A DNA stretch of 64,000 bases from Bryobacterales bacterium (GTDB taxonomy: Bacteria; Acidobacteriota; Terriglobia; Bryobacterales; Bryobacteraceae): contig PLRS01000140.1 in assembly GCA_003164035.1 (NCBI GenBank), positions 47,890 to 111,889 of the forward strand. The letters are read 5' to 3'. The translations under genes and the position numbers were made by a program. Shown here one piece after another: positions 16,470 through 24,238 of the stretch; position 1 is the first letter of the stretch; each line of letters opens with the position of its first letter. The notes below the pieces were generated by a model. It ran no database searches. It worked only from the letters and a program-made list of their open reading frames with translations, and was not told the DNA's origin.

Positions 16470-17228
16470 CTACTTCTTGCGCAGGTGGATGGTGCCGTTC
16501 AACGTGTAAAAGGTGATCGACACGCCGCCGCCGTTGATGGACCCTTCCAGTCCGCGGCCCGTATGCAGCCGTCCGCCGCTGGATCCCATGCCGATCCGCG
16601 CGCCCGGCGCGAGCGTGATATCGAAATCCGAATAAACCGAGCCATTTAGCGTATCGAACTTCACCCGAGCCTTGAGATCCCCCGGAAGGGCGACGTCGAT
16701 CGATCCGTTCAGCGTGCTGAAGTATAGCGGCTTGTCCTGCGCCACACGGTCCATGCTCACCTGGATCGCCCCGTTCAAAGTGTGCGCCACCACCGTTCCC
16801 GAGACGTTCGTCAACTGAATCCTGCCCTGGTGAGAATCCACGTCGATTTCGCCCTGGACCCCTTCCACCGAAATCGGTCCGTTCAGCGCCTTGAGCGTCA
16901 GCGAGGTTTCGACCGGAACCGTCACCGTCAGGCCGCTGTTGCCGCAGTCGATCTTGATGGCGTCGCCGTCCTGATCGATGGTGATGCCGCGCGGCAGATC
17001 GATGCGCCGCATGCCGCTTCGGTCTCTGGATTCGCGCGATTCACCGGTATCCACAATCACGTCCTTGCCGGCATGGGCCCTCACGGTGATGGATCCGTTC
17101 AAGCTGTGGATGCCGACCGGGCGCGCCGGCCGGCCGCCCTCGTTCCCCGGAATGACGATGCTTCGTTGAGCTTGTGCCGCGGTACACACTACTACTAACA
17201 GCCCAACCAGGCTAATTTTCTTTTTCAT
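16470..17228 (-). CDS. DUF4097-type exported beta-helix protein
   Basis: This encodes 252 residues with a signal peptide at 1-20 (MKKKISLVGLLVVVCTAAQA). The rest is a series of short strands repeating a sequence type (SLNGSITV, ALNGPISVEG, TLNGAIQV, TLNGSIDV, TLNGSVYS, TLNGTIHL), as in DUF4097/toast-rack putative auto-adhesin proteins. Probable location is the periplasm or outer surface. The function is unknown. It is the last gene of the sigma / anti-sigma / DUF4097 set, about 100 bases downstream of a second DUF4097 gene, and ends 13 bases from the convergent histidine kinase gene. Confidence 0.82.
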   Translation of the reverse strand: MKKKISLVGLLVVVCTAAQAQRSIVIPGNEGGRPARPVGIHSLNGSITVRAHAGKDVIVDTGESRESRDRSGMRRIDLPRGITIDQDGDAIKIDCGNSGLTVTVPVETSLTLKALNGPISVEGVQGEIDVDSHQGRIQLTNVSGTVVAHTLNGAIQVSMDRVAQDKPLYFSTLNGSIDVALPGDLKARVKFDTLNGSVYSDFDITLAPGARIGMGSSGGRLHTGRGLEGSINGGGVSITFYTLNGTIHLRKK

Positions 17229-17332: not shown

Positions 17333-18253
17333 CTAACTCTTTGCATGCACGCGGATGGGGCCGTTGAAGCCATCGAAGCTCAAAACCGGCCCACCGTGGC
17401 CGATGCGCGCGCTGTTCCACCCGCCCTCGCCCCAAATCCGCCGGCCGGTGAGTTGCCCGGCGGGCATGGTGAGGTCGAAGTCCGTATACACTCCGCCGTG
17501 GAAGGTCTTGAAGCGCAGATCGGCGTTCAAGTTTTTCTCGAAGTAGACATCCACGCTGCCGTTGAACGTGCGGAAACTGGTTTCCCGTTCCGGGTTGCGC
17601 CTGAACACGGCTTTGATGGACGCGTTGAAACTCTTCACCGAGCCGGAGCCCTCGATGTCCTCCAGATCGATGCCGCCATTGAAAGTTTCCACCCGAAAAT
17701 CGCCTCGCGTGCCGCGCATCTCCACCGTCCCGCGGTTGAAGTTTTTCAGGTCCAGGCGAACCCCCCGAGGCACTTCGATGTCGTGGTCGTACCAGACGGA
17801 AAAATGGTGGTGGCCGTCGCCGCCGGGCCAGTGCGTTTTCACTAGCACCTGGTTACCCTCCTGGGCCATTTCGGGCGTAACCAGCCTCCTGGCATCTTCC
17901 AGTCCAAATTTAGTTTCCGCCCGCATGTACTTCACAGTATGGATCTTAATGACGTTACCGTCGTATCCGTTCACGTGGACGTAACCCATGAAGTTATGGA
18001 CCGCAAGCTCGGCGTCGGCACCGCCGACGGTGAAGGACCGGTCCACGGTTTCCCTGTCTTCGAGGTTCCAGTTGTCGTCGTTGTTGTGATGAAAACCGAA
18101 AACCAGCGCGGGCGCCAGCGCTACCGCCAGAATGGCTAGCGTTTTGGTGGGACAGACCATCGTTTTTTGTGGTCTGTCAACACCCCGCCAAGCCAACTGC
18201 TTGACAGACGACAAAAAGCGGTCGTCTGTCCCACCTACAGCCAGTTTCTTCAT
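17333..18253 (-). CDS. DUF4097-type protein with a REPIN inserted in its leader
   Basis: This encodes 306 residues from ATG 18253, which has an AGGAG about 8 bases upstream and overlaps the anti-sigma stop by four bases. Residues 1-6 (MKKLAV) are followed by 30 residues encoded wholly by the palindromic element at 18146-18235, then the hydrophobic core KTLAILAVALAPALVFG of a signal peptide. Removing the 90-base element restores a normal signal sequence. An internal ATG at 18160 (MVCPTKTLAIL) would give a working leader. The body has the same repeated strand type as its neighbour (SFNASIKAV, TFNGSVDVY, TFHGGVYTD). Role: exported protein of unknown function, likely a target of the adjacent ECF sigma system. 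Confidence 0.82.
   Translation of the reverse strand: MKKLAVGGTDDRFLSSVKQLAWRGVDRPQKTMVCPTKTLAILAVALAPALVFGFHHNNDDNWNLEDRETVDRSFTVGGADAELAVHNFMGYVHVNGYDGNVIKIHTVKYMRAETKFGLEDARRLVTPEMAQEGNQVLVKTHWPGGDGHHHFSVWYDHDIEVPRGVRLDLKNFNRGTVEMRGTRGDFRVETFNGGIDLEDIEGSGSVKSFNASIKAVFRRNPERETSFRTFNGSVDVYFEKNLNADLRFKTFHGGVYTDFDLTMPAGQLTGRRIWGEGGWNSARIGHGGPVLSFDGFNGPIRVHAKS
18146..18235. repeat. 90-bp REPIN inside a coding sequence
   Basis: The element has outer termini GGTGGGACAGAC and GTCTGTCCCACC. Each half is its own hairpin with a T/A-rich loop (GACGACCGCTTTTTGTCGTC on the minus strand). It is 90 bases long, a multiple of three, and free of stop codons in the gene frame. Related copies are at 19685-19757, 23152-23237 and a single hairpin at 39001-39025. 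Confidence 0.9.
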
Positions 18254-19083
18254 CTTCCGATCTCCTTTTGGGTAAGTCCCAGTTGTTTCAAGCCCCACTC
18301 GGCCCGCTGCCGCACGATCGGCTCGGCGTCCGGCGACGCGGCGAGCTGTTTCATCTCCACGGCGCAATCGCGCGCGTGCGCGTTCACCAGGAATTCGATC
18401 AAAGCCACTTGCACCAGCGGCGATTCTTCGCCCATCAATCCATCCGCCAGGGTGCGGCGCACGGCCGGAATGGAGCCGTAGCGGCCCAGCCCATCCACCG
18501 CCGCCAGGCGCACGTTGACATTCGGATCCCGGCGCGCGGCTTCCACCAGCGCCTGCTCCACGTCGTTATCCGGACGGGCCAGTTGCTGGGCGTAAACCAC
18601 ACCCTCCAGGCGGGAGCCGGGCGAAGACTGGTTCAGCATGGCCAGCGACACCAGTTGGCGCAAGTTCTCCACCTGCCCCTGGAGCTGTGCCACGGAGGTG
18701 TCCGGGGTTCGCCCGGCCGGCAGAAACCGTCCGCCCGCCAGGCCGATGGCGAGAAGCCCCGCGGCCGAAGCCAACTGCCAGACCGGACGCTCGGTCCACC
18801 CCCACCACCACCCGCGCGGACGCTTCCGCGGCTCGCGCTGCGCCTGAGCCAAACCCGCCGAAAAGGCGTTCAGGGTTTCCCGGAACCGCACTCCCAATTC
18901 CGGCCCCGGCTCTTCGCCCCCAAGGGCGTCCATCGCTCTCCACACTCTTCCCATCGCCGCCAGCTCGGCGCGGCAGCCGGAGCAGCCTTCCAGGTGCTCC
19001 ACCAGGAGCTCCCGCGCCGCCTTGTCCAGCCAGCCGGCCAAGCATTCCGGAATCTGCTGCCGGTATCGATCGCAATCCGTCAT
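18250..19083 (-). CDS. Zinc-finger anti-sigma factor with HEAT-like repeats
   Basis: This encodes 277 residues from ATG 19083, overlapping the sigma gene stop by four bases. The N-terminal zinc-finger anti-sigma domain shows His30, Cys34 and Cys37 (EHLEGCSGC). A TM helix lies at about 103-118 (WQLASAAGLLAIGLAGG). The C-terminal 120 residues are HEAT-like helices (VRLAAVDGLGRYGSIPAVRR, ALIEFLVNAHARD). It would hold the ECF sigma factor at the membrane and release it on an outside signal. The open frame reaches to 19170, but the ATG at 19083 is the family start and gives the tight coupling. Confidence 0.88.
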   Translation of the reverse strand: MTDCDRYRQQIPECLAGWLDKAARELLVEHLEGCSGCRAELAAMGRVWRAMDALGGEEPGPELGVRFRETLNAFSAGLAQAQREPRKRPRGWWWGWTERPVWQLASAAGLLAIGLAGGRFLPAGRTPDTSVAQLQGQVENLRQLVSLAMLNQSSPGSRLEGVVYAQQLARPDNDVEQALVEAARRDPNVNVRLAAVDGLGRYGSIPAVRRTLADGLMGEESPLVQVALIEFLVNAHARDCAVEMKQLAASPDAEPIVRQRAEWGLKQLGLTQKEIGR

Positions 19084-19625
19084 GCCCGTTCTCCGCGCAG
19101 CGCAAAAAAGCGCTCGCCCAATTCGCGCAATGCGCGATACACCCGCACCTTCACCGTCCCCACTTCGCACTCCAGGGCGGCGGCGATTTCCTCGTACTTC
19201 ATATTCAGAAAACGGCTCAGAATCAGCACTTCCTTCTTTTCCGCCGGCATGGAAGCCAGCGCCCGGCGCAGGAATTCGGTTTCCTCGCGGTCCTCGGCCT
19301 GGCGCGCCGGAGAAGGCGCCGCGCTGGCGAAGCCTTCCATTGTGTCCGGTGTTGCAATTTCCTCCGGATGCCGCCCCACCTGGTCGCGCCAGGCGTTGCG
19401 GCCGATCTGAAACAGCCAGGCCCGGAATCCCGTTCCCGGCTTCCAGGTGTGCCGGTACTTCAGAATGCGGAAGAAGACTTCCTGCACCAGGTCCTCGCTG
19501 GTGGCGCGATTCCCCGTCTGGTGCAGGAAGAATTGAAACAGCGCGCGGTGGTGCCGTTCGAAGAGAACTTCGAGCCGGGCCACATCGCCGCCGCTCACCT
19601 CCCGCATGATTTGTTCGTCCTCCAT
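19080..19625 (-). CDS. ECF-type RNA polymerase sigma factor
   Basis: This encodes 181 residues from ATG 19625. Region 2 (residues about 15-85) contains FERHHRALFQFF and SEDLVQEVFFRIL. Region 4 (about 120-175) contains LILSRFLNMKYEEIAAALEC and VKVRVYRALRELG. It directs core RNA polymerase to its regulon and heads the operon with the anti-sigma and two DUF4097 genes, probably autoregulated. A longer open frame up to 19766 only reads through a palindromic repeat and is rejected. Confidence 0.92.
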   Translation of the reverse strand: MEDEQIMREVSGGDVARLEVLFERHHRALFQFFLHQTGNRATSEDLVQEVFFRILKYRHTWKPGTGFRAWLFQIGRNAWRDQVGRHPEEIATPDTMEGFASAAPSPARQAEDREETEFLRRALASMPAEKKEVLILSRFLNMKYEEIAAALECEVGTVKVRVYRALRELGERFFALRGERA

Positions 19626-19684: not shown

Positions 19685-19757
19685 GTGGGATGGGCCATCG
19701 CGCCTCGCCGGGCCACCAAGGCCCGACAGACGACAAAAGTCGATTGTCTGTCCCACC
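19685..19757. repeat. REPIN copy upstream of the sigma factor gene
   Basis: Termini are GGTGGGA and TCCCACC, with a right-hand hairpin GACAGACGACAAAAGTCG...TGTCTGTC. It matches the element inside the DUF4097 gene. It occupies the middle of the 312-base divergent gap (19626-19937) between the sigma factor gene and the beta-barrel gene. The rest of the gap shows no gene and no promoter I can identify with confidence. Confidence 0.8.
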
Positions 19758-19937
19758 CCGGCACACCTGTGCGCGCTCACCACGGATTTCCGCCGCTTAA
19801 AGGCAAGCGGGAAACCCGCCGCTTGAGGCAAAATAGGAGAGCGGCACCCCGTTGCGGGCGGTTTGGACGGACAGATGCACTGTCGATCTTCCGAAAGTCC
19901 GGTAGGGCCGCACATTCTGAAAACTCTCGAGGCGTAC

Positions 19938-23151: not shown

Positions 23152-23237
23152 GGTTGGGACAGACGATGGTTTTCCGCCACCTGTCATCCCCTCACGCCTC
23201 GGGAGGCTTGCCGGACGACACGGAGCGGTCGTCCGGC
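23152..23237. repeat. REPIN-like element overlapping the obgE stop codon
   Basis: The left part (GGTTGGGACAGACGATGG) and the right hairpin (GCCGGACGAC...GTCGTCCGGC) match, with changes, the element at 18146-18235. The obgE stop codon and its last roughly 15 codons fall inside it. Confidence 0.65.
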
Positions 23238-24238
23238 CCGCGCGCCAGCGCGTACTCGCTCATGGCGTGCATGAGCCCATCGAGCCCCTGTCCGGTTACG
23301 CTCGAGATCTCGAAAAACGGCAGGCCGCGAAGCGCGGCCAGTTCGCGGAGGCCGGCCACCCGGCCCGCATCCTGCGCCACGTCGATCTTGGTGGCCACCA
23401 CCAGCATGGGCTTTTGCAGTAATTCCGGGCTGAAACTCCCAAGCTCGGCCAGGATGACGTGGAAATCGTTCACCGGATCACGTCCGCTCTCTTCAGAGAC
23501 GTCCACCAGGTGCGCCAACACCCGCGTACGCTCGATGTGCCGCAGGAACTGCGTGCCCAGCCCGTGGCCCAGGTGCGCACCCTCGATCAGGCCCGGAATG
23601 TCGGCTACCACGAAGCTGCGGAAATCGTCCAACTTCACCACTCCCAGGTTTGGTTCCAGCGTGGTGAACGGGTAATCGGCGATCTTGGGACGCGCCGCCG
23701 AAATGCGGGAAATCAGGGTGGACTTGCCTGCGTTGGGAAAGCCCACCAGGCCCACGTCGGCCAGCAGTTTCAGTTCCAGCCGCAGACGCCTTTCGCCGCC
23801 AGGATGTCCCGGCTCGTGCTCGGTGGGAGCCTGGTGCGTGGCGGTGGCGAAACGGGCATTGCCGCGACCGCCGCGGCCGCCGCGCGCCGCCAGGTACCGC
23901 TGCCCCGGTTCGCTCAGGTCCACCAGGCGTTCGCCGGTATCGTCGTCGTACACCACCGTTCCCACCGGCACTTCCACCTCGATCGAGTTCCCGTCGGCGC
24001 CGGTCTTGTCGCTGCCTTCTCCGTGGCGCCCGCGCCCGGCCTTGTGCTCCGGGTTGTAGCTGAACTGCAGCAGCGTATTGTGGTGATTGCTGGCGACCAG
24101 CGTCACGTCGCCTCCGTGCCCGCCATCGCCGCCCGATGGACCCCCGTGCGGCACGTACTTCTCGCGGCGGAAGGCCATACAGCCGTTGCCACCGTCGCCT
24201 GCCTTGACGAGAATGCGCGCTTGGTCGAGAAACAACAT
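23192..24238 (-). CDS. obgE: Obg/CgtA ribosome-associated GTPase
   Basis: This encodes 348 residues. The N-terminal Obg glycine-rich fold ([31 protein letters not shown]) covers about 1-158. The G domain has G1 GFPNAGKST at about 166-174, a G3-type segment [11 protein letters not shown], and a G4-type segment VATKID. Obg is essential in 50S assembly and stress control. The tail after the G domain is short ([15 protein letters not shown]) and encoded by a palindromic repeat. It lies downstream of rplU and rpmA, with a hairpin terminator between rpmA and obgE. Confidence 0.95.

Follow-up and report, generated by a model that had tools for sequence, protein, structure and literature searches.

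Genes and features of the locus

The window, a stretch of 64,000 nucleotides from contig PLRS01000140.1 of a Bryobacterales bacterium, contains a minus-strand gene, hereafter the host gene, whose leader is interrupted in frame by a palindromic repeat. The features discussed below are as follows.

16470..17228, minus strand: paralogous DUF4097 gene (Pfam and homology to the host gene)
17333..18253, minus strand: host gene, DUF4097-like, with a signal-type leader; 306 amino acids including the insert (homology, leader analysis)
18146..18235, no strand assigned: REPIN, GGTGGGACAGAC...GTCTGTCCCACC; 30 codons when read on the minus strand
18146..18178, no strand assigned: first REP hairpin, CC-type arm, GGTGGGACAGACCATCG...GTGGTCTGTC (sequence and arm pattern)
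18158..18160, minus strand: in-frame ATG within the REP arm (MVCPT-KTLAIL...), with no preceding ribosome-binding site visible by eye
18179..18202, no strand assigned: REPIN spacer separating both REPs; site of a 2-base gap relative to the 92-bp copies
18203..18235, no strand assigned: second REP hairpin, GACAGACGAC...GTCGTCTGTCCCACC (sequence and arm pattern with 1 mismatch)
18251..18253, minus strand: native ATG, overlapping the TGA of the upstream gene (ATGA)
18262..18267, minus strand: presumed ribosome-binding site AAGGAG, not base-paired in the minimum-energy fold predicted for the mRNA
18250..19083, minus strand: upstream gene, a HEAT-repeat protein with a zf-HC2-like start (21.3 bits, cut-off 22.2; Pfam)
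19080..19625, minus strand: sigma-70-family sigma factor gene (Sigma70_r2, r4_2)

The product of the upstream gene is probably an anti-sigma factor, and the sigma factor encoded at 19080..19625 appears to be of the ECF type. An earlier note on this DNA had called the host gene a DUF4097 gene. In Pfam, the host gene does not reach the cut-off of DUF4097 (PF13349), its sole hit being an unrelated family at E 0.16, but its homologous neighbour at 16470..17228 passes with 35 bits against a cut-off of 22.9; because the assignment comes through this neighbour, the host gene is better described as DUF4097-like. By hydropathy and charge, its leader is of the secreted type, with a charged n-region followed by a hydrophobic core, so that the protein would be expected to be exported. 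With the insert, the n-region carries a net charge of +5, and the hydrophobic core is unchanged.

The repeat element

The 90 bp at 18146..18235 read as an inverted pair of 33-base REP hairpins with a 24-base spacer between them. A REPIN is defined by two inverted REPs and a spacer that can form one hairpin, and the element has this organization in both sequence and fold: as a single DNA strand it folds at -28.8 kcal/mol, compared with -12.8 +/- 2.4 for shuffled sequences, none of which (0 of 200) did as well. Genome searches, described below, place it in a family that is over-represented and dispersed through the genome. The 90-base palindromic element claimed in the earlier note is thus present, and the claim that it adds 30 residues without a stop is also borne out: the minus strand reads MKKLAV-(30 residues)-KTLAILAVALAPALVFG and is open throughout.

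Orthologues of the host gene

Of 150 same-family genomes searched with the host protein, 143 (its own genome counted) contain matches, many of which are paralogues. The orthologue set of 31 combines two named loci with the 29 best non-self loci, at 37-49% identity; L027 and L051 read alike and may stem from one genome. Leader length could be measured in 29 of the 31, the exceptions being L037, at a contig edge, and L048, whose alignment begins too late. From the start codon to a landmark (a conserved residue, Glu in most), these 29 leaders span 22-41 residues with a median of 31, compared with 68 residues in the window gene and 38 once the element is removed. The script that placed the starts chose an earlier ATG in L022, L024 and L028 (40-41 residues; about 29-31 from the later ATG) and a later ATG in L025 (25 residues; 31 from a GTG). 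No REP arm occurs in any of the 31 orthologue leaders, although L031, L051 and L052 have arms elsewhere. The alignment with orthologues proposed in the earlier note therefore comes out in favor of an insertion: the host gene has a REP within its ORF that is missing from shorter homologues, as in other in-frame intragenic REPs.

The search within the genus comprised a single genome, that of the window; the empty site is thus reconstructed from relatives at 37-49% identity. Because the leaders of these relatives are shorter even than the element-free length of the host leader, some flanking codons, few in number, may have been gained or lost along with the insertion. That the 30 residues are instead an old, conserved part of the protein, palindromic by chance, is hardly credible: the measured orthologues lack them, and dozens of unrelated places carry the same DNA. 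No point in favor of a conserved segment was found, and at same-family resolution the idea is refuted.

The named loci that match the same protein, 11 in all, come from Bryobacterales, Candidatus Solibacter and one Terriglobia record. Nine of them (L053-L061) matched chiefly through the peptide encoded by the REPIN, and the element pattern is present in eight; no case like the host gene was recognized among the 11.

Translation start of the host gene

The REPIN sits in frame between the native start and the hydrophobic signal core. The native start has the ATGA overlap and, in AAGGAG, what we take to be a good ribosome-binding site. In the predicted mRNA (minimum-energy structure), the REPIN forms one long hairpin and leaves this ribosome-binding site unpaired.

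Alternatively, the REPIN may be effectively extragenic, with translation beginning at the ATG at 18160 in the REP arm and the element serving as 5' leader and start-codon donor. This ATG lies in frame, 15 bases from the element end, and the resulting leader, MVCPTKTLAILAVALAPALVFG, retains the core behind a 7-residue n-region with a net charge of +1. The arm ATG is likewise in frame with the lipoprotein-type signal of a cytochrome-c gene (L096, discussed below), and a report on GTAG/CGTC REPs, in the portion available, cautions that a downstream start of translation may leave many N-terminal REPs outside the gene (PMC3733652). We nevertheless regard this alternative as unlikely, because the upstream ATG retains both its ribosome-binding site and its overlap, whereas no ribosome-binding site was seen in front of the ATG at 18160. 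Moreover, the REPIN of a second gene (L081, discussed below) offers no in-frame ATG, only a TTG inside and a GTG on the junction, yet the frame from its conserved start is kept. Translation of the host gene would thus most likely proceed from the native ATG at 18253, coupled to the upstream gene, to give 38 residues before the core, with a start at the REP's own ATG as the lesser alternative.

The REPIN family in this genome and its relatives

When the 8.0-Mb genome was searched by similarity, 40 of 220 candidate places were scored, and all 40 have at least 82% identity over nearly the full element on the better strand. A paired-arm pattern had 53 genome matches versus 0 for the control; among the 50 listed, two are overlapping double counts and three have a different middle. 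The looser single-arm pattern, allowing 1 mismatch, had 163 + 144 = 307 matches, with 0 for the reversed-pattern control. The fetched places yielded 58 repeat rows; L068 and L073 belong to a different repeat and were left out, and the other 56 are copies with lengths of 88 (2), 89 (1), 90 (4), 91 (16), 92 (32) and 94 bp (1). Most copies end in GGTGGGAC and GTCCCACC. Because the outermost base on either side varies among copies, 90 bp is given here as the frame-preserving unit and is unproven as the unit of insertion. No target-site duplications were seen by eye in the flanks of the fetched copies.

The family reaches beyond this genome. Across 20 same-family genomes, matches to the arm pattern number from 2 to 367, against 0-1 per strand for the control, and the REP-arm family is clearly amplified in several of them; the lowest counts (G014 and G095) are of one-mismatch matches and may be due to chance.

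Several copies (L005, L007, L062, L080 and others) were observed to have common longer flanks, ...CTCCGAACTCCTGATGTCGTGGAATTTG... and ...CCGAGGTGACATCAGGAGTTCGGAG..., and look as if centered in a larger inverted repeat of roughly 250 bp.

Element length and reading frame

Only four of the 56 copies have a length divisible by three. In a tree of the copies, of which 25 of the 50 inner branches are open, the window copy groups with L091 (90 bp) and L113 (89 bp) at a support of 93/91, below the tool's mark of 95/80. By pairwise identity, the eight nearest copies of the window element are 91-92 bp long and do not include L091. The evidence is therefore mixed: the 90-bp length may be older than the insertion, or a 92-bp copy may have lost 2 bases afterwards.

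An open frame through the element is by itself unsurprising, because 213 of the 336 element frames across the 56 copies are free of stops. This gives some room to the idea that the host gene is a decaying pseudogene whose frame stays open across the REPIN by luck. We consider such decay improbable: the frame past the element is intact across its 270 residues, with coding-type base composition and up to 49% identity to orthologues, the neighbouring sigma factor and HEAT-repeat genes keep their domains, and a frame-preserving length is rare among the copies. Tolerance of the REPIN by the host gene is what this intact frame suggests.

A RAYT-like transposase with REPs of a sister variant

The earlier note had also suggested looking for a RAYT transposase elsewhere in the genome. 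Twelve Y1_Tnp (RAYT-like) places were examined, each with up to 1.5 kb of flank. At one of them, L013, a gene with a Pfam match to Y1_Tnp has two REP arms upstream and two downstream, all of the GTGGGGCAGACCATCG type, a sister variant of GTGGGACAGACCATCG. Within the same flanks of the other 11, L014 has two weak arm hits with 4 mismatches and the remaining ten have none. The genome thus contains a RAYT-like gene flanked on both sides by REPs of the family, in a sister variant, and the window REPIN may have been mobilized by a RAYT such as that of L013.

At L013:1282-1833, the transposase frame itself continues across the nearer of the two downstream REPs and ends 3 bases past it; the last residues of the transposase are thus encoded by the REP.

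Probable insertion into the leader

Taken together, these observations make it very probable that the leader of a DUF4097-like exported protein acquired a copy of a RAYT-associated REPIN, with the reading frame kept, once this lineage had split from its relatives. A copy mobilized by a RAYT such as that of L013 would have entered downstream of the start codon and ahead of the signal core, a point at which a longer n-region that is still positive would be tolerable. With a length divisible by three, unlike the 92 bp most frequent in the family, it would have preserved the frame. The REPIN could then remain because its length kept the frame and because the n-region presumably tolerates extra residues.

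The host gene thus illustrates how the frame of a protein gene can survive the entry of a RAYT-associated repeat, in a lineage whose named relatives are Bryobacterales. The earlier note's conclusion that a REPIN can jump into coding sequence and be tolerated is right in outline and had already been published for other REPs; its second half, tolerance, is drawn here from the intact frame.

Further genes with in-frame REPINs

The reading frames that lead outward from the 56 copies were passed through a base-composition filter, and those retained were sorted by eye. In three genes a paired REPIN runs in frame into a signal core, and no start codon separates the two: the window gene, L081 and L096. 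The proportion, three of 56 copies running in frame into a leader, comes from inspection by eye and a crude coding score, and this score is too weak to classify all REPIN flanks.

L081 is an M1 peptidase gene that reads MFSRTPRRTGS-REPIN-LTPALALLALALPLSAQ. Matches to it were found in all 20 genomes searched, and 14 orthologues were fetched, at 64-71% identity. All 14 start with M-F, M-L or M-Y shortly before the core, as L081 does, and the bases in front of the start in L130, L131 and L137, where shown, resemble those of L081. A start at the junction is possible, since a GTG lies there. Judged by its sequence and backed by the 14 orthologues, L081 is a second case of an in-frame leader REPIN.

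L096, the cytochrome-c gene with a lipoprotein-type signal, is probably a third. Twelve of its 14 orthologues have an in-frame TTG (...KLR or ...KLP) before the core, overlapping the apparent end of the upstream gene, and the equivalent TTG is in frame in L096, about 70 residues before the core, with the REPIN forming the nearer half of this stretch. The case is given as probable because this start is deduced, because orthologue leaders vary widely in length (L148 and L143 are also long), and because the ATG of the REP arm is an alternative start. The leaders of the 14 orthologues of L081 and the 14 of L096 yielded no REP arm; one arm occurs elsewhere in L134.

Among the cytochrome-c loci L141-L154, leader length differs so much that it looks as if other sequences had entered there too. 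Just upstream of the element in L096, a second palindromic stretch, GCGCACGCACTCGTGCGTGC, adjoins the REPIN, and similar stretches lie in the flanks of L008 and L080.

The n-region has a positive net charge in all three genes (+5, +5 and +9). Tentatively, signal-peptide n-regions may be landing sites at which mobile REPINs survive within genes, since what is needed there would be positive charge rather than a given sequence or length; we hold this as a possibility that is more doubtful than not. As the three genes were picked by eye for the presence of a signal core, the concentration in signal leaders is a lead and not a test. Among 53 further arm places that were fetched (59 elements, 14 of them paired), the leader filter let none through; L159, in which a GTG precedes the core, was a near miss. 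The rule suggested here, namely that the n-region of a signal peptide can accommodate a repeat that keeps the frame, lends itself to testing in other genomes. Since the REP arm provides an in-frame ATG in two of the three genes, exported proteins could also acquire start codons from REPINs. For annotation, the in-frame ATG, GTG and TTG codons of REP arms are a warning, as they can mislead start-site calls.

A GH3 gene (L074) was considered as another leader case but left out of the count, as TTG and GTG codons follow the element.

Comparison with known systems

REPs in frame within genes, including at the N-terminus, have already been published, and the host gene is a further case. In the portion of PMC3733652 available, GTAG/CGTC REPs are described wholly inside ORFs, with dimers or groups encoding 20 to 30 amino acids; intragenic REPs are more frequent at the N-terminus than at the C-terminal end, REPs are mostly intergenic, and tyrosine transposase genes are flanked by REPs. 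The window REPIN resembles these in lying within an ORF, approximately at the N-terminus, in encoding 30 residues and in having a REP-flanked transposase gene in its genome. Signal-peptide n-regions, the site of interest here, are not among the topics of the same portion of that paper, which deals with N-terminal REPs generally and with genes for DNA repair and other functions. The acidobacterium it takes up is Koribacter versatilis, whose transposases have other terminal repeats; within this portion "Solibacter" is absent and "Acidobacteri-" appears once.

Rickettsia palindromic elements (RPE), according to the same portion, lie in frame in genes of likely functional proteins, some of them N-terminal and expressed (PMC3733652). 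Like the window REPIN, they are small palindromic repeats in frame within genes. They constitute another repeat family in another phylum, whereas the window genome has REPINs and a REP-flanked RAYT-like gene.

The REPINs of Pseudomonas fluorescens SBW25 are mostly extragenic, 14 of 1,067 occurrences of the 16-mers overlapping genes in the available portion of PMC3116915. As in SBW25, the window family consists of inverted REP pairs with a spacer that form hairpins and occur in many copies, and REPs adjoin a RAYT gene. The SBW25 REP, GTGGG[A/G]CAGAC[C/G]ATCG, differs from that of the window family and belongs to another phylum (PMC3116915), and, unlike SBW25 REPINs, some copies in the window genome sit in a larger repeat.

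In the open-licence PubMed Central literature, searched by titles and the starts of abstracts, none of the titles listed deals with REPINs in signal peptides, and the REP string GTGGGACAGAC retrieved no title on bacterial repeats. Relative to the portions of earlier text compared here, the one aspect not met before is the signal-peptide n-region as a repeated site of REPINs, seen in three genes of one genome that were selected by eye and of which one is a probable case.

Other REP sequences in the window and the genome

At the level of 3 mismatches, the window contains 19 arm matches in total, which is not above the chance mean of 14.9. At 23156-23239, two REP-arm-like matches, with 1 and 3 mismatches, lie about 70 bases apart and are possibly an old REPIN. 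A lone REP of the same family is located at 19725-19757, upstream of the sigma factor gene. The ORF list begins that gene at a GTG at 19766, before this REP, and the ATG at 19625 is the likelier start.

Two further observations come from other parts of the genome. In L203:423-2609, a REP lies in frame within a linker between TPR repeats and a glycosyltransferase-41 domain, in an intact frame of 729 residues; the linkers of the two nearest orthologues, L208 and L209, are equally long and give no support for an insertion. In L159:675-1880, a REP-arm ATG is in frame with a hydrophobic segment and the product has a weak TPR match, making this a possible further leader case.
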